Assembly (NCBI GenBank): GCA_001275005.1
Contig: JWZX01002620.1
Span: forward strand, 1-24,800
DNA length: 24,800 nucleotides
Direction of reading: 5' to 3'
Origin: Chrysochromulina tobinii
Lineage: Eukaryota; Haptophyta; Prymnesiales; Chrysochromulinaceae
The notes beneath the pieces are model-generated. The model was not told the origin of the DNA, ran no database searches, and saw only the letters and a list, made by a program, of their open reading frames with translations. How positions within the stretch are numbered: position 1 is the stretch's first letter; each line of letters starts with the position of its first letter. Positions 896-21,035 of the stretch are shown one piece after another. The translations under genes were made by a program, and so were the position numbers.

Positions 896-3816
896 TGGCA
901 AATCCATCGTACGAGCACGGGCGGCACACGCGCACCGGCTCGAGGTGCCCGCGCGAGGGCAGTGGGCAGCGCCGATCGGGCAGCGTCAGGAACTCCCCAA
1001 GGGCATCTCCCGCCACGCGATCGCCCGCCGGCGCGCAGAAGGCGCAGACCACGTGGCCGCAGCCGCGGCAGTTGTGGGTCGCGCCGACGCGGGAGGCATC
1101 CGACGTACCTGTGGGGAGGCGAGGGCGCCGCGGTGAGCACATACATGCATGCAGGGGCGGAGGCTTGTGTGCGATTCGTCAAAGAGGCATCCGACGTACC
1201 AAAGGCGCAGACCCAGATGACGTCGCTCCCGCAGACGTTACACGCCTTCCACTGACCGGTGGGCGTACGCGCCGGTGCGAAGCGCACGGGCGGCGTCGTC
1301 GTGGGCACATGGCCGCGGGCTCGCCACACCGACCGGAGTGCCATCGCGTAGCGGTCCATGTTGTGATCCGAGACCGCCCGTTGGCTCACGACGACGCGTC
1401 GCAGTGTGGGCAGCCTCGAGTCGCCCGCGACGGCGCGCGTGCTGCCCTCGCGCCCATGGAGAAGAACGACTCGACCGGCCACCACAAGCGCCGGCCACTC
1501 AACTGTCGTCTCTGCAAGCAGCTGCAGCTGTGAACCATGTAGCTGTGAACGGAACCCGGGTGTTTCTGGCGTTTGCGCGGTGCCAACAGCATCGAGATGA
1601 TCGGCGCCATCATCGAGCTCTATTCGTATCTCCTCGGAAGCCGATGGCCCCTGACTGCCCCTGCTGGCCTCCGAGTGGGGCTGATTACCCCTGATCATCT
1701 CTTCGGAAGCAGAATCTTCTTTGGCCCCTCCCGCGTGCGACATCGATTGCACCTGCGCACAGTCAGGAGCACCACTCCGCGCCATCAGAGGAAAGGAGGG
1801 GCCAACAGTGGTCCTCATAAGCACTCATAAGCACTCAGAAGCACTCAGAAGCACTCAGAAGCACTCAGAAGCACTCAGAAGCACTCGGGGGCACTCAGGA
1901 AACCTTGCCAAGGGTCTTGACGTAGTTGTAGTACGCGCTCTTGTCCTTAGCGAACCGCTCCTTGTAGAGAGCATCGTCCGCGATCAGGTCGAGGGCCAAT
2001 TGATGGCAGTTGCAATCACTCAGCCGTGGCACGAGGTCATCATTGTGCACGATCGAGAGCACCAGCGGCTTGAGGGCGTCCGCCAACGGCTCCGAAACAC
2101 AGGCGGGAGCGGCGAAGGCAATGCAAGTGATCGTGGGGAAGTCGCCCACCAAGAGCGCGGTCAGCAACGACGCGACGCCGGCCCCGAGGGAATGACCTAC
2201 GATCGTGAGTGTGTACCTAAGGGGAGACCCGGCGCCGTGGTGAGCACTTGCATGCGCCGAGGGCGTGACGCACGATCGCGAGTGCGTACCCGGCGTCCTG
2301 CAGCTTCGTCAGCGCCGCGCGGCAGCCACATTCGTCGAGGATCACACGTGCCGCCTGCAGCATGCCCCCATGCACGTGGTAGATGACGCCGTTCATCTCC
2401 AGCGGAGCGGGCGCGCTGTCGAAGTTGATGCGCCAGTCATTTGGGGATTTGGAGCCACGCACCTAATGAGGGAGGCAATCAGAGTCATTTGGGGATTTGG
2501 AGCCACGCACCGAATGAGGGAGGCCATCAGAGTCATTTGGGGATTTGGAGCCACGCACCTAATGAGGGAGGCCATCAGAGTCATTTGGGGATTTGGAGCC
2601 ACGCACCGAATGAGGGAGGCCATCAGAGGCCTTCAGAGGCCGTCAGAGGCCCTCGGAGGCCACCTCAGGCCCTCAGATCACGCACCGTGAGCACCGCCCG
2701 TTGATGCTCGGGCTGTGCAGCGAGCAGCCACGCAGCAAACGACGTCTTGGCCGGGTACGTGGGAACGACACAGGCCTCTGTGGAGGCGGCGCCGACGCAC
2801 GCGACGGTGATCCAGCCCTGATGGGTCGCCTGCTGCGCCGCGTACCAGGCCGCCCACTCACTTGTATCGTGCGGCGCTGGAAGGTCGTACGCCGCGTACA
2901 GCCACTGCGCAGGCCCGACCCACTCGGCGGCCAGCTTGAGGGTTTCGTCATCCGCGTCATCCGCGTGCCCGTCGGGCTCGTCCGCTCGGCACAGCGCGTC
3001 CATGGCCTCGGTGCACCCCAGGTAGTAGAGCCGGAGCGCAAGCTCCGCCTCCCGCGCGCCGTAACGGTTGGTGGAGCACACGACCACATTCTTGGCGTGC
3101 CGCGAGAGCATCGGTAGCACTCGCTCCACGAAGACTTGGAACGCCGGGCTGAGAAGCACCCCGCTAATGCCAGCCGTGGCGACCTTGGCCAGCGTGACGA
3201 CGTGGCCATACCCGGCCAGGTCCACCGCGGTCATCGCGAGCGGCCTCAGCCGCCGAGCGGTCGCCGTCATGTCGCTCGCCACCACGGCCACGCCCGGCCG
3301 TGGATAGAGCTGAGGCGGCGAGGCCGGCAACCCCGCCGCCTCGAGCCGCGCACCGAGCACCGCGAACTCGAGAAATGCATCGGCGTTAGCCGAGATGGCC
3401 GCGTGCAGCGCGTCGCGGAACTCGGCGCACTCCTTGGCCGCCTTCTCCGCATCAAGCGCTGCATTCCCCGCCGCCATGAACGCCTTCTCCTCCGCACTCT
3501 TCACACCCAGCGTCTGCTTCGCCACGACAACCCCAACCTCGGCCGTCTGCTTGGCTATGCCAACACCGACCTCGGCAATGGTCGCGATGGTCTTGAAATT
3601 CACACTCTGAGCTCGCGCGCTCAGCGCGGCAGCCTGCCCCTTGAGCTTGTCTGCGTGCTCTGCAGCCTGCTCCTTGAGCTTCGAAGCCTCGGCGTACTCG
3701 CTCGCGGCCGCAGCAATTGTGCTCGCCTGCGCAATGGCCTTACCTGCCTGTGCTGCCGCCTGCTCCTTGAGCTTCTCAGCCTGCGCAGCCGCCTGCTCCT
3801 TGAGCTTCGCAAACAT
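891..3816 (-). CDS. Class 3 (diacylglycerol-type) lipase with C-terminal FYVE zinc finger, five exons
   Basis: Predicted exons are 3816-2686, 2462-2290, 2216-1904, 1752-1200 and 1108-891, giving about 795 residues. Every junction has GT and AG and keeps frame. Residues 1-70 are KLKEQAAA-type helical repeats. The Lipase_3 domain starts where exons 1 and 2 join (AVLTVRGSKSPNDW, oxyanion region). It continues through GHSLG (nucleophile Ser about 444, created only by splicing exon 2 to exon 3) and HNDDLVP (likely Asp about 495) to VSDHNMDRY (likely His about 669). The C-terminus has CNVC, then NCRGCGHVVCAFC and VRVCRPC, the cysteine pattern of a FYVE finger, which in known proteins binds phosphatidylinositol 3-phosphate on endosomes. 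A membrane lipase recruited to such membranes is inferred. Introns 2 and 4 are introner-like, and introns 1 and 3 are full of tandem repeats. The least certain junction is intron 3. Confidence 0.85.
1109..1199 (-). mobile_element. Introner-like element A (lipase intron 4)
   Basis: This 91-bp intron separates the first FYVE cysteine pair from the rest of the finger. Its first 16 nt (GTACGTCGGATGCCTC, 1199-1184) are repeated exactly as the first 16 nt of the next exon (1108-1093). The interior holds GCATG, then GTGCTCACCGCGGCGCC, a run of C/T and CACAG, matching the core of elements B, C and D. Removing it restores the FYVE frame. Compared with the other copies, the core has a small insertion after GCATG. 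Confidence 0.75.
1753..1903 (-). other. Lipase intron 3, largely a decamer tandem repeat
   Basis: The donor is AAG|GTTTCC at 1904/1903 and the acceptor is GCGCAG|GTGC at 1753/1752. Both flanks are phase 0, joining LGK to VQSM. Without splicing a TGA follows two codons after the donor. From 1811 to 1900 the plus strand is nine decamers of the type GCACTCAGAA with minor variation. The acceptor choice is the best AG before the open frame, not proven. Confidence 0.6.
2217..2289 (-). mobile_element. Introner-like element B (lipase intron 2)
   Basis: This 73-bp intron splits the lipase nucleophile region. Its first 36 nt (2289-2254) match the first 36 nt of the following exon (2216-2181) at about 29 positions. 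The remainder is the shared core GCATGCAAGTGCTCACCACG followed by GCGCC, a C/T-rich run and CCTTAG. The intronic copy, if translated, would read IVRHALGA where the exon reads IVGHSLGA, so it is a decayed duplicate of the active-site motif. It is the most diverged duplication of the four, suggesting the oldest insertion. Confidence 0.8.
2435..2626 (-). repeat. Four 48-bp units spanning lipase intron 1 and exon 2 head
   Basis: The unit is a 28-nt exon-2 head (minus strand GTGCGTGGCTCC...) plus a 20-nt intron tail ending CCTCATTAG or CCTCATTCG. The 28-mers lie at 2435-2462 (the exon itself), 2483-2510, 2531-2558 and 2579-2606. The 20-mers lie at 2463-2482, 2511-2530, 2559-2578 and 2607-2626. The junctions alternate TAG, TCG, TAG, TCG, which hints at a 96-bp higher-order unit. 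The intron itself is 2463-2685, and its donor GTGCGTGA again resembles the exon head GTGCGTGG. Confidence 0.9.
2627..2680. repeat. Decamer repeat AGGCCNTCAG in lipase intron 1
   Basis: Directly beyond the 48-bp array the plus strand runs through about five degenerate decamers (AGGCCTTCAG, AGGCCGTCAG, AGGCCCTCGG and so on) up to the donor site near 2685. The last intron unit (GAGGCCATCAG) fits the same pattern, so the longer array may have grown out of this shorter one. Confidence 0.8.
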
Positions 3817-3975
3817 TGACTTCTTGCCTCACACGTGTGCGGCTTCCTCGCCTCGGCACAAAAGCGAGCCCTTTTGCGCGACCTCCAACGAAACTCATCG
3901 CGCTGATTGAAAAATGCGTGTTAATAGCGCGGATCATCACAGTGAGTGCAGCTCTCTGAATGAGTGGCTTCATCA
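3817..3975 (-). promoter_or_regulatory. Short gap holding the lipase-FYVE promoter
   Basis: These 159 bases separate the lipase ATG at 3816 from the stop of the next minus-strand gene at 3976. Promoter and 5' leader of the lipase gene must lie here or within the upstream gene's 3' end. No TATA box or distinctive palindrome was seen. Confidence 0.35.
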
Positions 3976-4956
3976 TCAGTCCTTTTTCAGACCCGAAAGG
4001 AGCGCTGCGTAGTTGTCGCCTCGTCGTTCACAGCCCGTGACCGGCACGGGGGCTGGACCCCGCTCGCGAGCGAGGAACCTTGCGACGGTCTGCGCAGTGG
4101 GATCGCTCAGAATACCGCTGATGCTGAGCGAGCTGGTCGCTAGCTGCGAACCCAAATCGTATACCTCAAACGTAGCCCCCGCAGCGGAGGCCATCGAGGC
4201 GCATTCCGTTGCCACCGCTGCCACGTCGGCGCGAGAAATGCTACCGGCCACCTCATCACCTTGATTGACCTCGAGTGCATCGGGACCCCGTGCAGGAAGC
4301 TTCGCAGCCCAATCCGCGTCACGCAGCCCGGACGGCCGCACGATGGTGTATGTAATCCCGGGGGGTGCACTCGCGTAGAGCGCGCGCAAGGCAGACTCGC
4401 CGGCGAGCTTGGCGTCCATTCTGCCGCCGAAGCGATTCAGGAAGCGATACGCAGGCGATCCCTGCTTTGTGACGCCGGCGCCCGAGATGAGGACGAGGCG
4501 CGGCACCGAGTTCGCAATGCATGCGCGTGCTGTCGATTCCAGGCCGATCCAATCAACCTCTCGTGGCGAGCCAAACGCAGGAGCTGTGATGGCGAAGATG
4601 ACGGTGCTCGCTCCCGCCACAGCAGCGCCTAGGGTATCGGGCTTCGTTACGTCCGCAGAGACGCAAGTCACCAGAGGTGACGCTGCACCTAAGAGTGCGA
4701 CGGCATCAAACTCACCGCTGCGCGTGCACGCGCGCACAGCTCGCCCAGTCGCCACGCAGAATTTTACAATCTCCCCACCTGTGCGCCCGCTTGCTCCAAG
4801 CACAGCGATTGTGCCACCCAGCTTGCTTGGCATCCCGGACACTGCTGAGAAAGCGTCCACAGAGCTGGGCCCTCGAAGTAGGACAGCCGCAGTGACAAGC
4901 CCTTTAGCGAACTCGCTTCGAGTCATTTTGCTGACAGCCATCGGCGGCGTCCGCAT
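3976..4956 (-). CDS. NAD(P)-binding atypical short-chain dehydrogenase (NmrA/SDR-like), probably organellar
   Basis: The single exon of 326 residues starts at ATG 4956. After a leader of about 45 residues comes a Rossmann nucleotide-binding motif (IAVLGASGRTGG, glycines near 54, 57 and 60). Conserved-looking blocks follow: VSADVTKPDTL, VIFAITAP, LVLISGAG and YTIVRPSGLRD. This is the pattern of atypical SDR proteins of the NAD(P)-binding/NmrA group, which often reduce or sense nucleotides rather than act as classical SDRs; the usual YxxxK pair is not obvious. The leader contains a short hydrophobic stretch (LVTAAVLLRG) followed by VDAF, resembling the signal-peptide cleavage site with Phe at +1 used by complex red plastids. 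Plastid targeting is an inference. No substrate can be assigned. Alternative starts at internal Met 6 and Met 11 would shorten the leader. Confidence 0.8.
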   Translation of the reverse strand: MRTPPMAVSKMTRSEFAKGLVTAAVLLRGPSSVDAFSAVSGMPSKLGGTIAVLGASGRTGGEIVKFCVATGRAVRACTRSGEFDAVALLGAASPLVTCVSADVTKPDTLGAAVAGASTVIFAITAPAFGSPREVDWIGLESTARACIANSVPRLVLISGAGVTKQGSPAYRFLNRFGGRMDAKLAGESALRALYASAPPGITYTIVRPSGLRDADWAAKLPARGPDALEVNQGDEVAGSISRADVAAVATECASMASAAGATFEVYDLGSQLATSSLSISGILSDPTAQTVARFLARERGPAPVPVTGCERRGDNYAALLSGLKKD

Positions 4957-4985
4957 TCACGACCAAATCTTGTCGCTACATTTAC

Positions 4986-4999
4986 CGGTACATGTACCG
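4986..4999. promoter_or_regulatory. Perfect 14-bp palindrome CGGTACATGTACCG
   Basis: The palindrome ends 29 bp upstream of the SDR-like gene's start codon at 4956. Its position and perfect dyad symmetry fit a dimeric transcription-factor site, but that role is inferred. Confidence 0.5.
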
Positions 5000-5750
5000 C
5001 ACGCTCGCTTTCTTGGGCAGCCGTAGCACCGGTTGTCGCGTCTGTCGTGTTAACGTTCACGAGACAGACACACGAACCACACAAACCGAACCACCTCCAA
5101 ACCCTCCAAACCAACCCCACCCACCGACTCACGCGCCAGACCACACCCGATTACTCCTATAGTTAACATGAGCGAGGAAACACACAGGGGGACCCAACAA
5201 CTGGATCGGTGGTCTAGCTGCAGGAGCTGTGCAGGAGAGTTAGAGCGACTGGTTGCTGCGAGCCCACCCGCTCGCGAAGTGGTGAGGCACAGGCCGCGCT
5301 CCCCGCTAGTGTATGAGGCCCTTTTTCGAACGAGGCGATCCCCTCGTTCGACTGAGGTTCGACTGAGTGCTCAAGCGGTGGCGGCGCGCGCGCCTGCGCG
5401 CGGGACTTGGTCTTGTTCATCAAACCATTCTCAGCACATTCAGAAACGTCTCCATCTCAATCTCGTGTTCTCGTCCACGTCCACCTCGACCGGGGTCTAC
5501 GGTGGCGATGCACATGTTAGTGCTGTCGAGTCCTTATGTCCTTTACTCGAAGGGACACCAGCCCCGGAGTGGGGCGTTGACGCCGGCGTAAACGTGAATG
5601 AGGAGCCTCCGGCCTCTGTGCACCGTGAACGCACCCGTCCGAGACGGCGAGGCGAACATTCGTGGATGGTCAATAGACGTGCCTGACAAAACCGCTTGAG
5701 TGGATCGTCCACGCTTGTCGTTGCGGCGCCGCCCAGGGCCTCCTTCATTT
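5000..5750. other. Intergenic stretch with hairpin, no supported gene
   Basis: This stretch lies between the SDR-like gene and the U-box stop at 5751. Bases 5085-5150 are poor in G on the plus strand, with repeated CAAACC and CCACC strings. A perfect 8-bp stem (CGAACGAG 5327-5334 with CTCGTTCG 5343-5350, 8-nt loop) is followed by further copies of GTTCGACTGAG. A plus-strand frame of 172 codons at 5168-5686 exists but shows no domain and has the Arg/Ser-rich look of a chance GC-rich frame. The left part should be promoter of the SDR-like gene and the right part 3' untranslated region of the U-box gene. Confidence 0.5.
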
Positions 5751-7290
5751 TTAGGAGGCAGAGGAGGAGGAAGAAGCTGGATTGCCTCTGAACCGTAACC
5801 CACCCAAGTAATCGACTTTGGGATCAGCTACAAAGTGAGGAAGATGCCGTATCGGGTCGAACTCGATCTTGAAGCCGGGCGGCTGCGAGCGAGACGGCAC
5901 CAAAGCGCACCACACGGCCGGCGGTGTGAGCATGGCGCGCGCGCCGCGCCACCGATGCGAAGTTGCTATGTGGGGGGGGCGCTGGCGTGTAGCGGGGCGC
6001 CGTGCTGGGCGCCGTGCAGTGCCCCGTGCAGGGCGCGTCGGGCGCACCAAGAAGATGTTGAAGCCGAGAATGAGCTCGTGGTGGCCAAAGAAGAGTTTGA
6101 GCACGCGGTCGATGACGTCCAGCGTGTCGATGCACTGCGCCTTGAACTCCTTCATGATGTCGAGGAACTGCCACAGGACGCGCGTGCATTTCGTCAGTAA
6201 GCCGGCGTGTGCGCGTGCGCGATGCGCGCACGAGAATGTCCATAACAATGGCGCCGACGTGTGGCTCCGGCGTACGGCGCACGCGCCAACGATGCGCGGC
6301 GCAAGCGCATACCTTGTTGTAAATCTGAGGCTGCCTTTCGAACTTCATCTTGACTTGGCACAGATACGCGATGGCGTCCTGAGCCGTTGGGCGGCCGGAT
6401 GCCATGGGCACGGCGCCGCCAGGGAGCGGGCCCTGCGGTTCGTACTGGCCGCCCGGACCACCCATCGGCGCTCCGAGCTTGGCGCCGGGACGTTGCCCAG
6501 AGGAGTGGTGGAAGGGAGAGGGGCCGGCGGGAACGTGGCGGTCTGGCACAGCCCCCGCAGCGCTGCCTGCTCCTCGGCCGCGCTGGTCGCCCGCGCGAAG
6601 CCCCCCATCGCCAGCAGCATCGCTGCCGTCGGGGAACATGGGTCTTCCCGCGAAGTGTGAGATGCAAGGGAAAGGCTCGACGGTGCTGCTGGCGGCGGGC
6701 GCTGGCGCAGCAATAGAGAGGGACATGGCCGCCGCGCTGCCTCCGCCGCCACCGCTGCCCGCCACCGCTTTCTTCCGGTGCCACTGGAGAACTGACTCCC
6801 GGCGCCGGCGGCGAGCGTCAGCGACGGCTTTCAGGCGCATTTTCCCACTCCGGGGCTGGTCGCGGGCTGCCTTGACGATGGCCTCAGCCTGCCGGGTGCT
6901 CTCGGCGCAAAGACTCTGCTGCTCCGGAGAGGAGAGACTTGCCTTCAGGAAGGTAGCAACCTCCTTCGCTGCCTCACCGCGCATACGGCTCGCGTCTGCC
7001 TGTGCGGCATTGACGATCTGCGTGGCGGCGTCCGTCGCCTCGTGCAACACTTTCGCCGCAGGAGTCGAGTGCCACTCCTCGATGGAACTGCGAAGCGCGT
7101 GGTTGGGTATGAGCACCTTATTGGGAAGCTGTGCCCCAGTCCTTGGGCTCGTGTTGTTCGTTGCGAGCCAGCGCTCAATGCTGGCGCGCTCGTAGCTGTG
7201 ACCGTCGGCACAGTTGACGGGGTCGCGCATGATCTCCCGGCCGATAGGGCACAAGAAGGATGGGAAGGCTGCATCGTCCATCGCGTCCAT
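5751..7290 (-). CDS. U-box E3 ubiquitin ligase-like protein with C-terminal Sin3-type PAH domain, three exons
   Basis: Predicted exons are 7290-6313, 6167-6048 and 5882-5751, about 409 residues. The introns (145 and 165 bp) are fixed by restoring one continuous PAH domain: [22 protein letters not shown], then [20 protein letters not shown] and [15 protein letters not shown], then PPGFKIEF. Residues 9-73 form a U-box ([28 protein letters not shown]), the RING-like fold without metal that recruits E2 enzymes. A helical segment with [13 protein letters not shown] and a Gly/Pro/Ala-rich linker separate the two. PAH domains are known from the Sin3 corepressor, where they hold short helices of transcription factors. 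A ligase that recognises such partners is inferred. I chose the Met just before the U-box as start; the frame stays open to 7503. The gene shares a divergent promoter with the gene at 7485. Confidence 0.82.
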
Positions 7291-7484
7291 GCTTCGGCGG
7301 TGTCGAGGAGGGAGCAACACTCGAGCAGCACAGAGACTTTCCGAGCAGCGTGCAAAGTACTCGAGCGCTCGATCACAGGAGCTCGCTTTCCGTTGTTGAA
7401 AGCGGTGTGTGGAATCTGCAATGATCACCCGTAACGAGATAGCTATCATCACGCGTGGCTCCGCACGTCTCATGTGCCGTTGAA
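7291..7484. promoter_or_regulatory. Divergent promoter between U-box gene and glycosyltransferase-like gene
   Basis: Less than 200 bases lie between the two start codons, which face away from each other. Regulation from one shared nucleosome-free region is likely. No TATA box or clear palindrome was seen. If the U-box start were further upstream in its open frame the gap would be smaller still. Confidence 0.5.
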
Positions 7485-8845
7485 ATGGCGTGTGTGGGAC
7501 CATTTTTCACACCTCCCGCGAGCCCATTCACGCGGCGCTCCCTCCATGTACAATCGTATCATGTCGAGCTCGCGGCGCTTCCAATTGACGCTTCAACTTG
7601 GCGGTCCCAACCCATGCACACGGAGCAAGGGCATCCAACCAACAGCACCACGCGTAACGTGCTCCGCGCACGGTCGTACTCTCCTGGTCGCCTTGCGGTG
7701 TGCATGGTTGGCGGGCTCCGGACGCTCATCCAGCCGACGGTTTTCCAAAGCATCAAGGCCAACCTGCTGGACAGCCAGGTCGAACCCGTGGATCTATTCA
7801 TCAATACGCACCTGAAAGTCGGCAGTGGTGACATGTCCCTCAACAGAGCAGGAGGTAGTCCAGTTGCTGCGGACGATCCACGCCTTTTGGCCGCTATTTC
7901 CCACCTGAAACCTGTCCAATATGTGCTGCGTCGTACCAACGACTGCAGTCAGCCGGAGGTGATGTACCACCGTGTCTGCCAAGACAAACGCGTCCCAAGC
8001 AACGATGTGCACCTCCACGGCTATCTGCAATTCCTGTGGATCGTCGAGGCTCACCATGACGTACTCCGGTAAGTACAGCCACTCACATCCTCCCAGTTCC
8101 GGGCCAACCTCTCTTGACTCGTCACGTGTGCGCGCGCGTACGCAGGTACGAGCGGGCTTACATACGGGGGCGGTATGCGGGGGTGCTGCGGACGAGGCCC
8201 GACGTTGCCTTTATGGCACAGATGCCGCGCATGCACACGTTGAACATGGCAAATGTCATTTTCCAGTCCGTGCACACAGAGAGGGGGCTCTGGGACGGGC
8301 TATGGCTGGTGGGGCGTGAGAGGGCCGAGCTGCTCATCCGCGCCTTGGAGACGTTCATCAATGTGACGGCTCGAAAGGCAAAGGTCAGCTGGCTTTCGTT
8401 TCCAGTCCTGGACTTTCCAGGATCTCTGAAGCTGCCACGAGGAGTCTTCACGATAGATCTCCCATGGCCTCCCGAAGAGCATATGCTGTCAGGAGCTGCG
8501 AGCTATGGGGGTCCAACGATGACGTGTGCGCCGTTTCCGGCCGTGATCGTGCGCGCCAACGACGCCAAGTCGGGCCTGACAGTCTCTTGCTTGCAGCACT
8601 CCGAACAGTGCACTGAGTTCCAAAAGGGACGGTGCTTGCCAGACCAGGCAGAGCCAACTAAGTGGGTCCCGTTGGGCACGGCCTGTGCGCAGTTTGCTGC
8701 GAGGATGAACGCGGATACGTTCAATGAACACGTGAGACCATCCGAGGCAGGTCACTGCGAAGAGATGAGTGCGCGAAAAAGGAAGCGCGCGGCGGGCGGC
8801 GGCGGCGCGTCACCGCGTGACACGCATCGACACAGCGCGCTGTGA
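7485..8845 (+). CDS. Glycosyltransferase-like protein, two exons
   Basis: Exons are 7485-8068 and 8146-8845, about 427 residues. The 77-bp intron has a textbook donor (CG|GTAAGT) and acceptor (CGCAG|GTACG), and splicing joins HDVLR to YERAYIRGRYAG in frame. The N-terminal part has RLAVCMVGGLRTL, an FQSIKANLL helix and PVDLFINTHL, the opening beta-alpha-beta pattern of putative glycosyltransferases found in algae and large algal viruses. Exon 2 continues with GVLRTRPDVAFM, another block typical of that group, then GLWDGLWLVGRE. I see no signal peptide or membrane anchor, so a Golgi location is not shown. The C-terminus ends in a basic run (ARKRKRAAGGGG). The start could also be the later Met at 7614. 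Donor and substrate are unknown. Confidence 0.7.
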
Positions 8846-8940
8846 CACAGCAGTAACAGCAGACGAGCAGAGGGGGAGGGTGTCCCTTTTTGTTCACAAC
8901 CCTTTTCACAGGGTGAACGAGTGCGGACACCGCGAAAAAC

Positions 8941-9891: not shown

Positions 9892-10171
9892 GGATATATA
9901 GAGATCCACAGTGCGGTGTCAGAGCAGACAAAAGCGAGAGTCTTAAGCGAGAGGCTGCCGTTCATTCAACGTTCATTCTACATCCCGGGTTGCACGACCA
10001 AATGTCGTGAAAGTTGCAACGACACAACAAACACGTTCACACAAATCGAATCGTTCGAATGCTCGTGGCGGACGACGCAGCCTCAATCACACGGCCCAGC
10101 GACGGCACACCTCGGGCCCCGGCTGAGATCCGTTGCAACCATTCACACCCCTCTTTATTCACGGCGACGTA
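9892..10171 (+). promoter_or_regulatory. Gap holding the SET-gene promoter
   Basis: These 280 bases follow the flavodoxin-like stop and precede the SET-gene start. They are less GC-rich than the flanks. An A/T-rich string GGATATATAGAG (9893-9904) just after the stop is the only TATA-like element. Direct repeats of GTTCATTC occur near 9960-9977 (CGTTCATTCAACGTTCATTC). No coding region is supported. Confidence 0.4.
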
Positions 10172-11161
10172 ATGTCCGACCGTACGCGGAAGAAGAGCAA
10201 GCTCGCGCCGTCGCGCGCTGAGCTCAAGCTCACGGCCGAGATCGCATCGGCCGCACGTCGCGCCCACGAGCTGCATGCCAAGCAAACGAAGCTTAGAAAA
10301 GAGGCCAAGGCAGGCGGTCAGCAGCTGGATGCGTTGCTGGCGCACTTGGAGAGTGGTGTGTCCACCAGCCCGCCGCCAATGCCGCAGCGCGCCGAGTTCC
10401 TGCCGACCGAGGAGTGCACATACGAGCGCAATGATGAGGTGTGCTTGAAGCGCTTGAAAAGGAGCCCGCATGGCCTCGCAGTTCTCAAGGCGCTGCGAGC
10501 CTGCTCGGAGGTGGACAGCGACCAGGCTCATTGGGGAGGCCCCTTTGGTGCGGAGCTGCGCGCGCTGGTTGACGGGCGCGGCTCACCGAACCCAAACATT
10601 CGCGTGATGCGCGCCGCCGACCCGTCGGTCAACCCTGTCGCGTTGCTCACGCCTCCGGGTGAACCGGCGCTTGCGGCGGTTGCCGCGCAACACATCGCCG
10701 CGGGTACGCCAGTCGCTCTGTACACGGGTGAGCTGGTAGTGGACGGCGAGGACAGTGAGCTGCCCTCGAGTACGTACGTGTACAAGGTCACGCGTGACTT
10801 TCTGCAGGCGCGCGGCTACCCCGATGATCTCCCTGCGCCCTGCATGGACGCCTACCGCGGCGGGCTGGCGCGCTTCGTCAATGACAAGTGGACGCCCCTG
10901 GGCTGGCCGACGCGCACGCCGAATGTGTACATGGACACCGTGTACGACGGCACACGGCGCGAGGTGCACCTGTGCTTCTTCGCAAGCGCGCCGATCGCCA
11001 AGGGTCGCGAGCTCATCGTGGATTACGGGCCCGAGTACTGGGCGACGGCGCTGCGGCTGCTGCTGGCGGCGCACGTCAAGGTAGTGAGGCAATTGGAGGG
11101 TCGGCTTGGCGGGAAGGCCGGGGCGTCCAGCGCTGCGCTGAAGAAGGAGGAGGACGAGGAG

Positions 11162-11203
<42 letters not shown>

Positions 11204-12010
11204 GACGAGGAGGAGGGCGACGACGGAGAGGAGGGCGAGGAGGACGACGAGGGCGAGGAGGAGGGCGAGATCTTCGACCTCGGGTTGGAGCGCCTTCGCG
11301 AGCGCCTGGCCACACAGGACCTTGACCTGATCCTGTTCGACGACCTTCCCGAGGCCGCTGAGGGCGAGGAAGAGGAGCGCACCCTCGCCTCGCTCCTCAA
11401 ACTCGAGCACCTGTTGCTGCCGCTGACGGTGGCGAAGCTCGCCACGGAGATTGCGGAGTCGATGCGCGGCATGTGCGCCGAGTGGGACGAGGATGAGACG
11501 GCGCTCTCCGATGCACTCGTGGTCAAGATCCTGCGGCCCAAGGTGGCCGAGGCCGCGCAGGCCGTGGCGGCAGCGCGCTGGCCAGTGGCACTCGGCACGC
11601 TGCTGGGACTGCTGCTCTTCTGTTCTATCGAGGATGGCTGGCTGCTCGATAACCGGTGCCATCAAGAGTGGCCGAGCTGGTGCGCGCTCTTCGAGCACCT
11701 CTCGGACGCGTGGCGTGCGGTGCTTGCGAAGGATGACCGCACGCTCGGCCTGCGGCCCAAGGGCGGGCGTCCGGAGGGTTACCGGCCAAAGCTGGTTGCT
11801 CTCCTCCGAGGCTGGCAAGAGGAGGCCAATGAGGCATTGGCCGGGTACGACGGGCTTCTCAACGAGGGCGTGCCTTGCATACAAGTGCCCACCACGGCGC
11901 CCCCCCCTCCCCCCCTCAGGTACGACGGGCTTCTGGGCGGTGGACTCGCGCGGGTCACCGCGTGCGCGGACGAAACGAAGGAGAAGAAGGAGAAGAAGAG
12001 GAAAAAGTGA
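10172..12010 (+). CDS. SET-domain protein (candidate lysine methyltransferase) with acidic tract, two exons
   Basis: Predicted exons are 10172-11844 and 11920-12010, about 587 residues. The N-terminus is basic and helical (SDRTRKKSK). The SET fold occupies about residues 165-290: AAGTPVALYTGELV, the STYVYKV strand, MDAYRGGLARFVND (the RFxND block that shapes the cofactor pocket), TPNVYMDTVY, HLCFFASAPIAKG and ELIVDYGPEYW with the catalytic-type Tyr. It uses S-adenosylmethionine in known relatives. A tract of more than 40 nearly pure Asp/Glu residues follows, encoded by GAGGAC repeats near 11140-11275, then a helical C-terminal region and a Lys-rich tail (KEKKEKKRKK). Acidic and basic tracts suggest a nuclear, chromatin-associated role, which is an inference. 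The 75-bp intron is introner-like and contains no in-frame stop, so its retention adds 25 residues. Confidence 0.82.
11845..11919 (+). mobile_element. Introner-like element D (SET-gene intron)
   Basis: This is the only copy in plus orientation. Its first 15 nt (GTACGACGGGCTTCT, 11845-11859) are repeated exactly at the head of the next exon (11920-11934). The interior holds GCATACAAGTGCCCACCACG followed by GCGCC, a long C/T-rich run and CCTCAG. It differs from the core of element B at only two of the first 20 positions. Length 75 is a multiple of three and there is no stop, so the coding frame alone cannot prove that it is spliced. The match to elements A, B and C is the argument. Confidence 0.72.
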
Positions 12011-12503
12011 ACGCTATCAGTTTCTGAAGTGAGAAGTGAGTGTCGGGGCGGGCTGGCAAGAGGAGTCAGGAGCTGTGGGGAGCATGGTGGAGGGCGGAGC
12101 GCCGACGGACGGCGGACGCAGCGCCGAATGCGACTGCCCGTGCGGACTGCGTGGTCTGACTGAGGAGAAAAGTGATTGAGTGATTTTTGTGCGGCTTGGG
12201 ACGCTCAAAAAAAGGCGTGCAATCGACATGCGAATCCATCCACAGACGAGTGGAGCGCGGGGTCGGTTAAGCCGGGACCGCTCAGGTGGTCCGGTGGAGT
12301 GCCATGGTCCTGGCGCGGCGAACACCGATTCACCGAGCGAGCAGGACTTGACCCCGCGGCGCCGTGCGATCTATAGTCACTAGAGTGCGACAGCCTAGCG
12401 ATCGGGCACTAAAGAAACCAGAGGCGGCTGTTGTCGGTGCCGCCGCCTCCTCGAGCACCTGGCCGCGGCCCGCGCATCGCACGGGTTCTCTATGCATGCC
12501 TGC
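12011..12503. other. Convergent 3' intergenic stretch
   Basis: This stretch lies between the ends of the plus-strand SET gene and the minus-strand gene ending at 12504, so it should hold both 3' untranslated regions. Short frames cross it without any recognisable domain. I looked for tRNA-like folds in the GGTGGTCCGGTGG region and saw none that was convincing. Confidence 0.5.
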
Positions 12504-12995
12504 CTACTGCGGATGGATCGTGATCCCCATCTCGTGATCGTGATCGCCATCTCCGTCCGCTATGGGCATCGCGCCGCGGGTTCCGCTAGCCGAGCGCTGC
12601 GACCGTGCGCGTTGCAGCCTCTGGGCGTAAAGACCTCGCTGGGGGCTGCTGGTTTCGATGGCTGACGAGGGCACGTTGTCCTTCCTCGTCGGCTTCCTCA
12701 CTCCGCGGCGCTTGAATGACGTACATCTGACCACTCGCACCTGCGTCTTGGAAGGCTCGAGTGCGTTAAGAGGAGCTTGAACTGCACTTGTGGATGAAAC
12801 TGACTGCTGCGGCGGCTCTGGAATGGATGGCGGTGGCGGCAGCGGCGGCGCAGTCACAGCTGACTGCTCGGCAGAGCTTTCCTTCAGAGCACGCAGCTTG
12901 GCCTCGCGTGCGGCCAGACGTGCCGTCGCCCGCGCTTCAGCATCTGCGCGCAACTTAGCCGCCAGCGCAATAGACTCAGCATCGTCGTCGTCCAT
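12504..12995 (-). CDS. Small charged helical protein of unknown function
   Basis: The 163-residue frame starts at the ATG at 12995 (MDDDDAESIALAAKLRAD); the frame remains open upstream but without a better start. Residues 1-40 form a strongly charged Ala/Arg/Glu helix, probably a coiled coil. A proline-rich stretch (PPLPPPPSIPEPP) and a basic segment (CTSFKRRGVRKPTRKD) follow, and the C-terminus is His/Asp-rich (DGDGDHDHEMG). I do not recognise a family. Its 5' leader (about 13062-13150) is nearly the same as that of the gene at 15053-16486. The start is the least certain point. Confidence 0.55.
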   Translation of the reverse strand: MDDDDAESIALAAKLRADAEARATARLAAREAKLRALKESSAEQSAVTAPPLPPPPSIPEPPQQSVSSTSAVQAPLNALEPSKTQVRVVRCTSFKRRGVRKPTRKDNVPSSAIETSSPQRGLYAQRLQRARSQRSASGTRGAMPIADGDGDHDHEMGITIHPQ

Positions 12996-13454
12996 CGTGG
13001 CCGGTAGCCTACGCGCTGGAGTCAAAACCGGCGCGGGGGTCGCGTGAAAGAACGACGAAACATTCACGTTCTCGTTCACGAAAAATTGCCATATCGGCAA
13101 GACGCACCACCACAGGTCCCGTGGAGATACAACGTGGAGGGCGCAGACAAACACAGACACCAGATCGGACAGTCACAAGGGGGCGGGAGTGTATGTTCCA
13201 ACCATGTATGTTCCAACCACGCCATTGTGCATTGATCATCGTACATGTATGAGTACTTGGAGATGTAGTGCAGGCACCGAGAGATGAGGCACCGGCCACC
13301 ACGTGTGCAGGCAGTCTGGGCGTGCGGGCGAGAGCAGAGGGCCCTCGTGACGCTTGTCGTGACGGTCTCATCTCTCATGCGGTATGCTTCGAGAGCTTGT
13401 GCTCTCGGGCTTGTGCTTCATGTTGTGTGCTTCGAGAGCGTGTGACGGCCTCAC
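12996..13454. promoter_or_regulatory. Leader and promoter of the charged-protein gene; 3' flank of F-box gene
   Basis: Bases 13062-13150 match the leader of the Ala/Lys-rich gene at 15053-16486: GCCATATCGGCAAGAC at 13088-13103 and GGTCCCGTGGAGA at 13115-13127. Upstream, a perfect 15-mer (TGTATGTTCCAACCA) is repeated head to tail at 13190-13204 and 13205-13219, which would suit a transcription-factor site. Near 13387-13441 several GAGAGC and TTGTGCTT strings recur close to the end of the F-box gene. Confidence 0.5.
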
Positions 13455-14783
13455 TCACGCCGAGACGATTTGGAGGAGCCTCGTGGCATCGAGTACCGGG
13501 CCATCCGTGACTCCAGTCTCCTCGAGAACTAACACGTGCGGCGCAAGGAGCTCCATGGCCCAGCTCATCGCGAGCTTCGCCACACGCCCCTCGAACGCCA
13601 CGTCCGCCGCGTTCGTCGCGGACCATCGCGACAGAGCGACGAACAGGCTCGTTCGGGCCTGGGTGGGCCACTGTGTGGGGAAGGAGGCTGCCCGTGCCCA
13701 GGCGCGAAGGGTCGCCACGGTGCACAAGCAGCCCCGAGTGCCGATCCAATCTTCTGCCTCCGCCCCGTCCTCTTGCTCTCGAAGGTGGTCGATGAGGTCG
13801 ACTACGTCTGCAATCGGCAGCGCGGCTGAGGCGACGAAGAGGCCGATTCGAGCGGCATCATCTTCCGTGAAGTCGTAATCATCGAAGAAGCAAGCGAACC
13901 ACGACATGATCACCTTGGATCGATCCGAACGCACTGGCATCTTGTCCAGGCACAGTTTCAAGACCGCCTCATCATCGACACTGCCGAATGCTCTGGCAAA
14001 GCTCTTGACGTCGCATGCGAGGAAGTGAGCTTCCTCGACATTGAGGGTCGAGATGCCGTTCGTATCGAGGGTCGAGATGCTGTCCGTAGACGCCGTATGG
14101 GTATGCGTATACATCTTCATCAAGCCCAAAATGTCCTTGCACTCAAGGACCTTCTCTGCGCTCCACTCGGAGGCATGCCTGCACTTGTTGAGAGCTTCGG
14201 CAAATTTTCCAAACCCCAGAAAATAGATGAAGAGTTCCTCGCTGTCGCGTGCAACCATGACGGGCGCCATGCGACGTACCAGCTCGATCGTACTGGCTGG
14301 CCCGTCAAGTCGGCATGTAACGGCACCGAGGAGACGCAACGCGTCGTCCGCGACGGCATGGGCCATGCTGCGTTTGCTGCCTGTGCATGCGGCGTACTCA
14401 GATTGCAGGCTCGTGTGGAAGTCGGCCGAGACGAGGCCCTGAGCAAGGGCAGCATTCCAGACGGTGGAGACGAGAGCGAGGCGCGCGGCTGCGTGCACTG
14501 GTAAGTGAGCGATGATGAGAGGGTACACCTCGAGCGGCAAGTCGTCCATAGTCTTCGCGTGCGCGCGGGGACCGGCTGCGGCGCTCCGGAGCGGCTCGGA
14601 TGACGGCGGCTCCGGAGCACCAGGTGGCTGCCAGCGCTTGCGCTTCAAGGCCTGCAAGTGGCGGTCATCCTGGAAGTCGCCATCCTCGTCCTCGTCGTCG
14701 CCACCCGCTTCAGTGCCAGAGCGATCATTCGCCCGGCTCATCGCCGCCGGCGAGCTAGTAGTCGAGGAGCCAGCCGGATGCAT
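13455..14783 (-). CDS. F-box protein
   Basis: The single exon of 442 residues starts at ATG 14783, with an alternative Met at 14741. An acidic, disordered N-terminus (GGDDEDEDGDFQDD) precedes an F-box near residues 79-113 (MDDLPLEVYPLIIAHLP, ARLALVSTVWNAAL), the segment that binds Skp1 in SCF ubiquitin ligases. The remaining 330 residues are helical with Trp and Cys scattered through and no LRR, WD or Kelch pattern, so the target-binding part is unassigned. A 24-bp imperfect tandem duplication at 14040-14080 yields SISTLD then GISTLN. A role in targeted protein degradation follows from the F-box family; the substrate is unknown. Confidence 0.7.
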   Translation of the reverse strand: MHPAGSSTTSSPAAMSRANDRSGTEAGGDDEDEDGDFQDDRHLQALKRKRWQPPGAPEPPSSEPLRSAAAGPRAHAKTMDDLPLEVYPLIIAHLPVHAAARLALVSTVWNAALAQGLVSADFHTSLQSEYAACTGSKRSMAHAVADDALRLLGAVTCRLDGPASTIELVRRMAPVMVARDSEELFIYFLGFGKFAEALNKCRHASEWSAEKVLECKDILGLMKMYTHTHTASTDSISTLDTNGISTLNVEEAHFLACDVKSFARAFGSVDDEAVLKLCLDKMPVRSDRSKVIMSWFACFFDDYDFTEDDAARIGLFVASAALPIADVVDLIDHLREQEDGAEAEDWIGTRGCLCTVATLRAWARAASFPTQWPTQARTSLFVALSRWSATNAADVAFEGRVAKLAMSWAMELLAPHVLVLEETGVTDGPVLDATRLLQIVSA

Positions 14784-15052
14784 CGACGGTGCGAAGCGAA
14801 GGCGGACGCCTCGAAGTACGCGAGAGATTATCGTCCAGACGCGGTGCGGAACGGGAAGAAGAATTTCGTAAGCGATCTTGCATGCACAATAGGTCCTACA
14901 AGCGACATGATGCGAATTCTGTCAATCCGCCTACACAGGGTCAACCTGACCAATGCTGACCGCGCTTTGCGTACTGTATGGAGGAGGATATATCCCTCCG
15001 GCCTCCGGCCACGTCTCTGTTGGATACTGAGACTTGCACTCTGTATTCGCAC
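14784..15052 (-). promoter_or_regulatory. Gap holding the F-box gene promoter
   Basis: These 269 bases lie between the F-box start and the stop of the upstream minus-strand gene. They include an interrupted dyad around 14983-14999 (GGAGGA, TATA, TCCCTCC) and are richer in A and T than their neighbours. The TATA within the dyad is a candidate core-promoter element on either strand. Confidence 0.4.
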
Positions 15053-16486
15053 TCATCTGTTCTTTCCGTTCTTCCCTCCGTCCCCAGCCTCGTCGGCGGC
15101 CGACCCGACCGCTGACGCACGCGGCGGAGGCGGTGGTGCCGCCCCATCGGCCGCTGACACACGCGGCGGAGGCGGCGGTGCCATCGGCGGTGAGCCCTCC
15201 TTGACGACCGCCTGAGCCGCGCTCGCTTTCCGGGCTTCATCGAGCAGGACGCCGCCAATGGCCGCGGTGCTGAGCACTGCGAAGCCCGCCAGCACCGGCG
15301 TCGCGTCGACGTTGCTTTCTGTGGATGCCGCGGCGGCCCGGCTTGCCGGCGAGGCTGCCGGACGTGACAACGCCTCGTCGAGCTTATCGAGTGTGCTGCG
15401 AGGCTGCACCACTGCCTTCTCCACTGCCTCGGCGGCGGCGGCCTCGGCGGCGGCGGCCTCGGCGACGGCGGCCTTGGCGTCGGCGGCGTCGGCGGCATCG
15501 GCGGCTGCGACCCTTCCCGCCTCGAGGGCTGCGCTTTGCGCCTCTCCCCGCTCGAGCGCCGCGCGGGTGGCAGCGTCGGCCGCCGCCTTCTCGGCCGCCG
15601 CCTTCGCGGCCGCCGCCTTGTCGACAGCCGCCTTGTCGGCAGCCGCCTTGTCGGCCACTGCCTGCTCTGTCGCCGCCTTCTCCGCCGCCGCCTTCTCCGC
15701 CGCTGCCGCCTCGACGGATGCGGCCGCCCTCACCTTGCCCGCCGCCTTCTCGGCCTCCTTCTCAGACGCTGCCGCCTTGGCTGCAGCCGCCCTAGCGGCC
15801 TTCTCCGCCTTGGCTGCCGCCTTATCTGCTGCTGCCACCTCGGCGGCCGCCGCTTCACGCTCGGCACGCGCGCTGGCCGCAACAGCCTGAGCGGCCGCGC
15901 TTGCCGCCGCGCGCTCGGCGCGTGCCATCCGCGCCGCCGCTGCGCGCTCGGCCGCACGGGCCTCCGCATACGCGACGCTAGTCTGTGACGGCGCAGATAG
16001 CGATGGCCGCGAGGCCAGCGAGGCGAACCGCTCGGCGACGACGGGTGGCGCACCGAGCGAGCTGAGCGTCGTCGGGTCGGCAGATGCGATGAGGAGCGCG
16101 GCCACGATGTTGAAGGCCACGATGTTGAAGGCCAGGGGCCCGCTGGTCAGGGTGCTGAGCAACTGCGTTTGGTACTCCTGCTGCTTGCGAGACTTGGTGA
16201 GGATGGAGGTGCCGCTGCGCGACCTGACGCTCTTGCCCGAGGTGCGGATGGTGACTCGCTTGCTCGTGGGCGTGGCTCTAGCGGCCCCTGGCGGGAAGAG
16301 CCAAGGGCTTTTGGTGCCACCAGCCACAGGCTGTTTGCGGCCTGCGGCCTTGGAGGAAGGCTTTGTAGGCGACAGCTCAGTGTTGATGCCTAGCACGGGG
16401 TTGATGATGGGACGACCACCTGTGAGGGACACGCTCGCTGCGTGCTGGGCGACGAGCAGAAGCAGGGTCGATCGCAGACGAGGCAT
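15053..16486 (-). CDS. Secreted or membrane-anchored Ala/Lys-rich helical protein
   Basis: The coding exon of 477 residues starts at ATG 16486. The N-terminus is a clear signal peptide (RLRSTLLLLVAQHAASVS). A basic, disordered region follows, then a hydrophobic stretch (GPLAFNIVAFNIVAALLIA) that contains a perfect 15-bp tandem duplication at 16100-16129. Residues about 165-370 are a long Ala-rich charged helix built from units such as ADKAAADKAA and AEKAAAEKAA, similar in composition to TolA-like or late-embryogenesis-type helices without proving kinship. A second hydrophobic segment (VLAGFAVLSTAAIGGVLL) and a Pro/Ala tail end the protein. Passage through the secretory route, possibly to a plastid or the cell surface, is inferred. 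The leader carries a 262-bp intron upstream of the start. Function unknown. Confidence 0.68.
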   Translation of the reverse strand: MPRLRSTLLLLVAQHAASVSLTGGRPIINPVLGINTELSPTKPSSKAAGRKQPVAGGTKSPWLFPPGAARATPTSKRVTIRTSGKSVRSRSGTSILTKSRKQQEYQTQLLSTLTSGPLAFNIVAFNIVAALLIASADPTTLSSLGAPPVVAERFASLASRPSLSAPSQTSVAYAEARAAERAAAARMARAERAAASAAAQAVAASARAEREAAAAEVAAADKAAAKAEKAARAAAAKAAASEKEAEKAAGKVRAAASVEAAAAEKAAAEKAATEQAVADKAAADKAAVDKAAAAKAAAEKAAADAATRAALERGEAQSAALEAGRVAAADAADAADAKAAVAEAAAAEAAAAEAVEKAVVQPRSTLDKLDEALSRPAASPASRAAAASTESNVDATPVLAGFAVLSTAAIGGVLLDEARKASAAQAVVKEGSPPMAPPPPPRVSAADGAAPPPPPRASAVGSAADEAGDGGKNGKNR

Positions 16487-16946
16487 TGGCCGTTTAGGTT
16501 CTCCGATCCGCCGTGTTCATCGCGCTGCATCGCAAGAATCTTTGGACCGGAGAAATTTTAATTAGGAACACGGAAGTTTTTGATGACAAGTTTATAGGTT
16601 CACGTTCACGTTCAAGTTATTTTGCCATCTCGGCAAGACACACACCTGCGGCAGACACGATAGACCGGTTAGTAGCCGACAGAAAAGCAGCGGCAGACAA
16701 AGCAGCAGCAGTCAAAGCAGCAGCAGACGAGACCAACTAGGTCCAAGGGCTCCAAGCAGAGGCGGACAAAGTCGATGAATACAAATAATAAAAGCAGCAG
16801 CAGCTAAAGCAGCAGCTGACCAGGCAGCTAAGGATAAAGCAGCAGCAGAGCAGGCAGATAGAGAAATGAAAAAAGCAGCAGCGGACAAATGAAAAAAAGC
16901 ATCTCACCGGTCCCGTGGAGACACGCACCGGTGGGGGGCGCAGACA
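16487..16946 (-). promoter_or_regulatory. 5' leader of the Ala/Lys-rich gene with a pyrimidine-rich intron
   Basis: The leader starts near 16946, about 15-20 bp after the stop of the upstream gene, and shares its sequence with the leader at 13062-13150. An intron is predicted at 16646-16907: donor CCG|GTGAGA, branch site CTACTAAC (16668-16674, reverse strand), acceptor CCGCAG|GTGTG. On the transcribed strand it is T/C-rich with repeated GCTGCTGCTTT. Splicing brings GGTCCCGTGGAGA (16909-16921) close to GCCATCTCGGCAAGAC (16624-16639), as they are without an intron in the other gene. Confidence 0.65.
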
Positions 16947-16960
16947 TTATATTAAGAAGT

Positions 16961-18206
16961 TCATGGGTACGTCAACATCGGCAGGCTCACGGCCGCCGCA
17001 ACGCAAAGCACGCCGAGCGCCGCCGCCGCGACAGCGCCAAAGCCCGTCATGCAGTTTCGCCACTCGAGGCCCGCCGCCTTCCCAAAGGCAAAGCGCGGGC
17101 TCCAGCTTGGGCTGCCGCTGCCCCTCGACCATGCGCTCGACATGGCGCTCCAAAAGGCCGAGTCTGGCGAGCCCACGCGCGCCCGGCGCGGCGCGTCGTC
17201 GGGCGCGTCATCGTGCGCGTCGTCGGCTTCGCGCGCTGGCCCGGGCGGCACGGCCCACCAGGCAGGGGAGTTGGCGTCCCTGTCGGGCTGCTTGAGGTGG
17301 CGGAGGGGCACGGCGGCGGCGTGGTACCAGCGCATCCACGCCGCGGCGACGCCCATCACGACGCCCTCTCGGAGGGCGCGTGAAGCCCCCGTCGAGGCCG
17401 AGCCCGAAGACCAAAACCGAGCGTGACGCTCCGCCACTCGTCTGTGGAGCGACTCCGCGGCGCGCACCTGTGGGGAGAGGAGAGCGCCGTGCTGAGCACT
17501 TGCATGCGCGCCGCCCCGCCACACGTCTGTGGAGCGACTCCGCGGCGCGCACCCGCTCTGCGGTGGTCTCGCTGTAGCAGCGCGCGCGCGCGCACTGCGT
17601 CTCGGCGCGCCTCTGGGCCTTCCGGCGTGCGCGCTTCGTCAGCGGCATCGGCGCCTCGACCGCCGCGCCGCTGCCGCCCTCGGGTGCCTCGGGTGCCTCG
17701 CCGCCGTAGGCACTGAACACGCTGTCGGCTGACGGCACTGCGGCAGGTGTCAAGGTGAGCGTTCGTGCAAAGGTCTCGCTACTCTCAAAGGCGAGGGTCA
17801 CGAGCTGCTCGAGCGGGCGCTGCACACCACCGAGGTATGCCTCCGACGCATCCAGGGGCAGCTCGCGCCGGCACCGCTGCCGAAGGAGATGGTCCGAGGT
17901 CACGACGCGCAGCTCGTGAGGGTCGGCCGACAGCAGCGCATCGACGGCACTGACGATCAGTGTGTCCGCGTCCGCGTCGCCTGAGAAGGCGACGGCCAGC
18001 GTTGCTGACAGCGCAAAGGCCTCTTGGCGAAGGCCGTGGTCGATGGCTAGCACCACGAGCGGCGGCAAGCGGCGCGCGGTTTCGAGCGAGGCGGCCCAGC
18101 GCCGGATCGCTTCGCAAAACAAGCTCAGCTCCGGGAAGTTGCACGCGCCACGGATGTTCATGCAGTCCAGCAGCCAAACGTCGCGCCCGCTGAGGCACGA
18201 GTTCAT
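16961..18206 (-). CDS. PIN/NYN-like ribonuclease-type protein with C-terminal membrane anchor, two exons
   Basis: Predicted exons are 18206-17553 and 17467-16961, about 386 residues. The frame is open to 18254, where only GTG is available, so I start at the ATG at 18206. The N-terminal 130 residues fit a PIN/NYN nuclease fold: VWLLDCMNIRG (first acidic residue plus Asn), PLVVLAIDHG, VAFSGDADADTLIVSAV (acidic cluster) and HELRVVTSDHLLRQRC. Such domains cut RNA with a metal ion held by three or four acidic residues. A linker with a basic stretch (TKRARRKAQRRAE) follows. The last 30 residues hold a hydrophobic segment (GFGAVAAAALGVLCVAAAVSL), which would anchor the protein to a membrane with the nuclease in the cytosol; this is inferred. 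Intron C removes a frameshift that would otherwise lose the anchor. Confidence 0.7.
17468..17552 (-). mobile_element. Introner-like element C (PIN-gene intron)
   Basis: This is an 85-bp intron whose first 37 nt (17552-17516) match the head of the next exon (17467-17431) at 36 positions. The interior contains GCATGCAAGTGCTCAGCACG, GCGC, a C/T-rich run and CCCCACAG, one base different from element B over 20. Splicing joins ETTAER to VRAAESLHRRVAER in phase 0. The near-perfect duplication suggests a recent insertion. Confidence 0.8.
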
Positions 18207-20955: not shown

Positions 20956-21035
20956 TCAAGTCGGAACGTGTACAGTATTGTACCCGACAGGCGGCTTGTC
21001 AGTGCTTGACTTGTCTTGACTTGCGCCAATGCTGT

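Follow-up and report, generated by a model that had tools for sequence, protein, structure and literature searches.

Introner-like introns in the window and their genomic family

We analyzed a family of short, introner-like introns present in a 24,800-nucleotide (nt) stretch of DNA from the haptophyte Chrysochromulina tobinii (contig JWZX01002620.1, positions 1 to 24,800; hereafter the window). The element consists of a variable stretch followed by the 24-nt core GCATGCAAGTGCTCACCACGGCGC and, usually, a C/T run that ends in CACAG. The first-pass annotation of the window had proposed a family of introner-like introns; wherever the refuting conditions that it named could be checked, none of them applied, and a multicopy, partly recent family is supported by 2,410 core matches in the genome, by target duplications anchored at the splice sites in 107 of 180 sampled copies, and by homologous proteins that are free of the insert. 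Reading frames and protein domains suggest that the inserts are introns removed at the RNA level, and as to their origin we lean toward patches copied in at breaks with staggered ends or at paired nicks rather than the work of a transposase.

The window holds four copies of the core, compared with 0.01 expected from 100 dinucleotide shuffles. All four lie where the first-pass annotation had placed them, and the duplicated exon heads that it described were found again as splice-anchored repeats with counts near its own. Its assignment of the copies to three genes also stands, as the copies at 1109 and 2217 both fall within stretches of a single Lipase_3-FYVE protein in the homologue P0125. The copies and their parts are as follows.

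1109..1199, minus strand: intron copy in the FYVE part of the lipase-FYVE gene; 91 nt, donor GT, acceptor CACAG, reading frame broken
1129..1148, minus strand: core of this copy, 3 mismatches
1184..1199, minus strand: first target repeat, donor side; 16 nt, 16/16 matches
1093..1108, minus strand: second target repeat, start of the downstream exon; 16/16 matches
2217..2289, minus strand: intron copy that interrupts the Lipase_3 domain; 73 nt, frame broken
2236..2255, minus strand: core of this copy, exact (0 mismatches)
2257..2289, minus strand: first target repeat; 33 nt, 6 mismatches
2184..2216, minus strand: second target repeat, pair to 2257..2289
17468..17552, minus strand: intron copy in a gene whose joined protein has no Pfam match; 85 nt, frame broken
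17488..17507, minus strand: core of this copy, 1 mismatch
17512..17552, minus strand: first target repeat; 41 nt, 2 mismatches
17427..17467, minus strand: second target repeat, pair to 17512..17552
11845..11919, plus strand: insert in the SET-domain gene; 75 nt, frame open, either an intron or an in-frame insertion
11877..11896, plus strand: core of this copy, 2 mismatches
11845..11859, plus strand: first target repeat; 15 nt, 15/15 matches
11920..11934, plus strand: second target repeat; 15/15 matches

Next, we searched the genome (53.15 Mb in 2,253 contigs, the window being contig C1467) for the core. Allowing up to 3 mismatches, we obtained 1,163 forward and 1,247 reverse matches, i.e., more than 2,000 further to those of the window, compared with 5 for the reversed pattern. 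Exact matches numbered 912 for a 16-mer and 461 for the 24-mer of the core, counts in which point changes and truncation are inseparable; the right half of the core, TCACCACGGCGC, is moreover frequent by itself in exons and in 18-nt tandem repeats. A longer 5′ form, TGATTGCCACTGATGACCTGCCCTT joined to the core start, had 21 matches in the genome at up to 3 mismatches and contains TGATTGCC-type sequence, as does the satellite-type intron at 2463-2685 described below. The existence of this longer form indicates that the element has no fixed 5′ end.

We then tested copy by copy for the direct repeat that the first-pass annotation had described between intron start and exon start. The sample comprised 180 unique copies with up to 4 mismatches on 65 contigs, taken from 20 long and 60 short stretches, four loci, and the window; it was directed rather than random (first-listed core places, 20 places from a GCGCCCTC list, the four longer-5′-form loci, and the window). 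The test accepted GT or GC as the donor and AG as the acceptor and required a repeat score of at least 10; by this measure, an anchored duplication was present in 107/180 copies, compared with 16/703 mispaired controls whose two sides came from different contigs. The remaining 73 copies divided into 29 with CACAG within 45 nt, 3 with CCCAG only, and 41 with neither. Removing 16 of the 107 (7 with an acceptor more than 40 nt away, 5 sharing a downstream exon, and 4 nested or tandem) left 91 clean introns.

Anatomy of the clean introns

Across the 91 clean introns, the duplication ranged from 11 to 45 nt (quartiles 22, 29 [median], and 33.5), the stretch between repeat and core from 0 to 63 nt (median 5, zero in 20/91), and the whole intron from 44 to 133 nt (5th and 95th percentiles, 63 and 91.5); the tail from core to acceptor had a median of 22 nt. 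Repeat length was negatively correlated with the length of the stretch before the core (Spearman coefficient = −0.48), as expected if the distance between donor and branch site must hold. The donor was GT in 71 introns and GC in 20, the final exon base was G in 73/91, the acceptor was CACAG in 74/91, and the downstream exon started with GTGC or GTAC in 41/91. The CTCAC of the core fits a putative branch site. This anchored layout supports the arrangement given in the first-pass annotation, in which the target duplicate would supply the donor, and the insert would supply a branch-like site, the C/T tract, and the acceptor.

The two repeat copies differed at 101 of 2,022 compared positions, with 24 of the 91 pairs perfect, and the cores differed at 46 of 1,820 positions. 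These figures indicate that part of the insertions are recent. Insert lengths modulo 3 were spread over remainders 0, 1, and 2 (29, 26, and 36 introns, respectively). Two composite sequences and two window introns folded no better than their shuffled versions (z = −0.90 to 0.63), and the window and three loci gave no Rfam match at gathering scores; we accordingly rejected a structured RNA element.

Evidence for removal from the message

We evaluated the coding phase on either side of the inserts with a codon model trained on the window genes. The phases of the two exons agreed in 51/91 introns when the exons were joined, compared with 28/91 when the insert was kept, chance being 30. The model is noisy: it called the downstream exons sense in 71 introns and antisense in 16, and with both exons of the 91 introns it returned 53 sense, 32 unclear, and 6 antisense. 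A version based on stop codons was weaker, with a stop-free sense frame in 50/91 joined and 36/91 unjoined introns.

Protein domains point the same way. Joining the exons across 1109-1199 produced a Pfam FYVE match of 32.6 bits, with no FYVE match on read-through, and joining across 2217-2289 produced a Lipase_3 match of 82.8 bits, with no Pfam match for the read-through fragment. Furthermore, a 74-nt insert on contig C37 splits a dual-specificity phosphatase, the joined piece of which matched DSPc at 52.3 bits. In the SET-domain gene, by contrast with these frame-dependent cases, the insert at 11845-11919 is 75 nt long with its frame open, so the reading frame does not force its removal.

Homologues without the insert

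The first-pass annotation had named relatives lacking both the intron and one copy of the repeat as something to look for, and we found proteins that fit. At three of the four window sites, the insert and one repeat are absent from homologous proteins. The protein P0125 (67% identity) is continuous through three intron places of the lipase-FYVE gene, where it carries single copies (VRGSKSQNDWRINF, YSLTIVGHSLGAGVA, and CAVAASDASRVGATHHC); it runs through GHSLGAG at 2217-2289 and is continuous at 1109-1199 as well. For the SET-domain gene, P0002 (94%) has a single YDGLL and lacks the insert, whereas P0001 (98%), which comes from another assembly, carries the 25 extra residues. A third protein, P0003, diverges just past the insertion point and was set aside as uninformative. 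At the phosphatase site on C37, both P0004 and P0005 (99% and 98%, each over the searched region) are continuous. These comparisons are at the protein level, and the source of each protein is either insert-free DNA or a spliced transcript; either would back our reading, in different ways.

The named proteins nearest to the lipase came from Pelagophyceae sp. CCMP2097 and Aureococcus, at 45 to 52% identity (one gene, one search), a result that by itself would make a pelagophyte-like stramenopile likely. In the assembly itself, C101 and C235, and likewise C692 and C760, have intron copies in common, and the flanks of these copies are identical in the portions examined; the assembly thus holds duplicated or allelic regions usable for presence/absence comparison. 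Searches of GTDB and IMG/VR, in which entries for this genome or a very close one could be missing, returned two further places. The single exact core match in GTDB genomes lies on a bacterial contig with no GCGC after it and was read as chance. The other is at the very end of an IMG/VR contig (L029, 4495-4554), where an exact copy of the core is followed by GCGC, a C/T run, and a CACAG that resembles an acceptor; elsewhere that contig looks unrelated, and the match is probably a stray or chimeric end.

Copies that lack an acceptor and the meaning of GTRC

A repeat with a score of at least 13 is present in 18 of the 41 sampled copies that lack both CACAG and CCCAG. The spacing of these repeats was divisible by 3 in 11 of the 18 (6 expected). 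The set is partly tandem (two copies each on C40, C395, and C816 and four on C343), and several of its repeats run into the element itself, so that the target edge is undefined there. Judged by the noisy codon model, the copies at C310:2465 and at C343:2650 and 2860 are antisense to their gene, and those on C40 and C386 are sense. In these 18 copies, selected for lacking an acceptor, the inserts end at differing points 3′ of the core.

The first-pass annotation had read all of its preinsertion sites as GGT(A/G)C(G/A). GGT(A/G)C holds for the four window sites and fails for the family, given the share of GTGC or GTAC exon starts reported above and given that GGTRC stands at or near the repeat edge in just 2/18 acceptor-less copies; the latter result led us to reject GGTRC as an insertion motif. 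Because it is so rare in this set, GTRC together with the sharp CACAG edge is best read as the product of selection for splicing. Most simply, GTRC at the repeat edge is what splicing keeps and not a preference of insertion.

Other fillers in the same duplication format

We scanned the window together with the 20 long stretches, 198 kb in all, for pairs of repeats with a score of at least 18 that lie 36 to 200 nt apart around a filler having no 10-mer in common with the repeat. We found 46 such structures, compared with 0 in one dinucleotide shuffle per stretch. The core was present in 11 of them, 14 had tandem arrays as fillers (period 10 in seven, 20 in five, and 5 and 6 in one each), and 21 had other fillers, with less regular arrays among them and, probably, some gene repeats of the ordinary kind. 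The first-pass annotation had judged the long, variable duplications unusual: they are longer than the 3 to 9 bp described for published introners, but they are not peculiar to this element, as other fillers are likewise flanked.

One array-type filler lies in the lipase-FYVE gene of the window.

2463..2685, minus strand: satellite-type intron of the lipase-FYVE gene; 223 nt, 48-nt units, three of them inside the intron

Each unit joins a copy of the 28 nt that open the downstream exon to CTGATNGCCTCCCTCATT-type filler, and the fourth 28-mer is the exon itself. The exon junction over this intron is backed by VRGSKSQNDWRINF in P0125. A further protein, P0124 (96%), stops a few residues beyond the donor of the same intron, in the manner of an open frame read from unspliced DNA; this hints that such entries in ENA may be DNA. 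Between the lipase and FYVE parts, at about 1800-1905 on the minus strand, there is also an array of TGAGTGCTTC, probably an intron given that P0125 joins the two parts.

Two observations lie beside these results. The right half of the core, here GCTCACCACGGCGC, stands alone in exons (L009 on contig C8, minus strand, at about 2585-2700 of the reverse strand, and also L016 and L028), in places as frame-keeping 18-nt tandem repeats. At 20530-22990 of the window, by eye, the end of a thioredoxin-like gene and the region downstream of it recur at the end of a second gene, which itself contains a tandem duplication of about 300 nt (21060-21380 and 21400-21700).

Source of the insert

Two copies on contig C319, at 16244 and 15183 and at a distance of 1.06 kb from each other, have the 16-nt AGCCATCGCACCTCTC in common immediately ahead of the last base before the core. 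In the second of them (15183), AGCCATCGCACCTCTC falls almost entirely within the exon repeat of that copy. The two are probably a parent-daughter pair, judging by this shared stretch. The repeat of the daughter copy also ends in AGCC, so the two may have been joined at a short shared sequence. Wider tests of a local origin gave mixed results. Clustering by contig was seen for the base that follows the core (25 pairs compared with 4.6 expected; 2/5,000 permutations), with most pairs from C8, which has tandem copies. The stretches before the core matched their own contig in 9/27 cases, compared with 0/27 when reversed, and matched anywhere in 20 compared with 16, mostly as 11-mers. The similarity of C/T tracts within contigs was not clearly above chance, as 247 of 2,000 permutations were as high.

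How the copies may have arisen

According to the reading that we favor, an exon would be opened by a nick in each strand, 11 to 45 nt apart, or by a staggered break, a patch templated by one of the intron copies already present would be joined between the opened ends, and fill-in would create the duplication; a short repeat with the core would thus be copied into the exon, and its target duplicated, at each insertion. The upstream duplicate, if it started with GT or GC, would act as the donor, the insert would provide the CTCAC branch-like site, C/T tract, and acceptor, and removal of the intron would restore the original message. Most insertions that could not be spliced and did not keep the frame would disappear, and this filter would account for the sharp CACAG edge, for repeats that begin like donors, and for the surplus of distances divisible by three among acceptor-less copies. 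More tentatively, new introns may arise in this genome by a general process of exon duplication and not through a transposon, with the patch coming from an intron close by, a satellite array, or some other sequence. If so, good patches, i.e., those with a branch site and an acceptor, would multiply, and introns would spread as selected repair patches.

Several points weigh against patching at breaks. Break repair alone does not explain some 2,000 uses of one core, for which a preference or an abundant source is needed. Splicing itself is predicted from reading frames and protein domains, the anchored-repeat test admitted only GT/GC donors and AG acceptors in a nonrandom sample, and 29/180 copies have CACAG without an anchored duplication, so the duplication either decays or is not universal. 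In addition, the acceptor-less copies are few and partly tandem, ordinary repeats of genes or satellites probably make up some of the 46 repeat-filler-repeat structures, and the local origin of copies is weakly shown, the C/T-tract test (247/2,000) included.

The abundance of one sequence would be accounted for by target-primed reverse transcription, a possible route that we hold in some doubt, whereby the reverse transcriptase of a resident retroelement starts from a nick and copies intron RNA in the fashion of short interspersed nuclear elements (SINEs). The first nick would then set the acceptor edge, a variable second nick the repeat length, and incomplete copying the variable 5′ end. Duplications and 5′ ends are both variable in the 91 introns, a reverse transcriptase search of the genome yielded 26 matches (22 above the Pfam cutoff), and acceptor-less copies seem, by the noisy codon model, to occur in both orientations. 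However, the 3′ ends of those copies, chosen for lacking an acceptor, are scattered beyond the core, fillers unrelated to the core carry the same kind of duplication, and the one reverse transcriptase frame that we scanned had RVT_1 only, with no endonuclease domain. Patching at breaks or nicks fits the mixed fillers and scattered ends better, and target-primed copying fits the high number of one sequence better.

Variable repeat length, variable ends, the apparent presence of both orientations, and unrelated fillers all argue against a cut-and-paste transposase, and we regard a nonautonomous DNA transposon as improbable. Not all published families of DNA-transposon introners have terminal inverted repeats; in the listed copies none were evident by eye, with no dedicated search made. 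According to PMC9860276, the known introner families that have duplications or inverted ends are mostly interpreted as DNA transposons and published duplications measure 3 to 9 bp, whereas here the duplication has no fixed length and the 5′ end is not fixed. We give equally little credence to reverse splicing, a model put forward for fungal introner-like elements in which excised intron RNA goes back into a message or into DNA. It would suit the exact acceptor edge of most intronic copies, yet reverse splicing is not known to leave a target duplication, which most sampled copies have (107/180), and copies without splice sites exist. It is least probable of all that the inserts are not introns and are instead translated or meaningless repeat insertions or assembly artifacts. 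The open frame of the SET-gene copy, in both the window and P0001, and the frame-preserving copies without acceptors would agree with this; against it, the lengths of the clean copies cover all remainders modulo 3, joining restores coding phase and three Pfam domains (FYVE, Lipase_3, and DSPc), and P0001, from another assembly, also has the SET insert.

Comparison with known systems

Variable target duplications and variable 5′ ends are features of target-primed insertions of SINEs and long interspersed nuclear elements; both are found here too, whereas the copies here lack a tail of the kind that those elements have and several unrelated fillers share the format. Like introners, the copies described here are many similar introns at unrelated sites, recent, with the 3′ splice site taken from the insert and the 5′ site from the target repeat (PMC9860276). 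They differ in the length of the duplication, in the open 5′ end, and in a format common to other fillers. The short duplication typical of DNA-transposon introners (the Micromonas, Aureococcus, and Symbiodinium type) contrasts with a median of 29 nt here, and the introners of Amoebophrya have duplications of 3 to 5 nt (PMC7789003). Our searches of an open-access library returned no introner duplications as long as 11 to 45 nt.

The neointrons of Daphnia pulex have exon-intron repeats of 4 to 12 bp, read as the repair of staggered double-strand breaks (PMC4202315). They resemble the present introns in that the start of the exon is repeated at the opposite end of the intron (here in 107/180 copies compared with 16/703 controls), and they differ in the shorter repeat and in that the sources of most of their inserts are unknown, whereas here one family was used about 2,000 times. 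A set of 213 introns of all classes has direct repeats of 4 to 30 bp (mean, 11.4) at or near the borders, linked to insertion (PMC11782384); there, in contrast, no single insert family is amplified, and the repeats are shorter on average and near rather than exactly at the borders. Finally, fill-in at breaks with complementary 3′ overhangs yields small tandem duplications in mammalian cells, unlike here with no recurrent intron sequence inserted (PMC8355091).

The origin of new introns is a long-standing question. This one genome offers insert-free homologues, perfect and eroded duplications, frame-keeping inserts without acceptors, and several fillers in the same format, a variety that lets insertion preference be separated from later selection for splicing. 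About one-third of each intron is locus specific, so similarity between copies stops short of the 5′ splice boundary, which the pipeline of PMC9860276 requires; screens that demand similarity to both splice sites could miss introns of this type, and such intron gain may thus be undercounted. The family belongs to introner-type intron gain and is set apart from DNA-transposon introners by its long, variable duplication, its open 5′ end, and a format that other fillers share.

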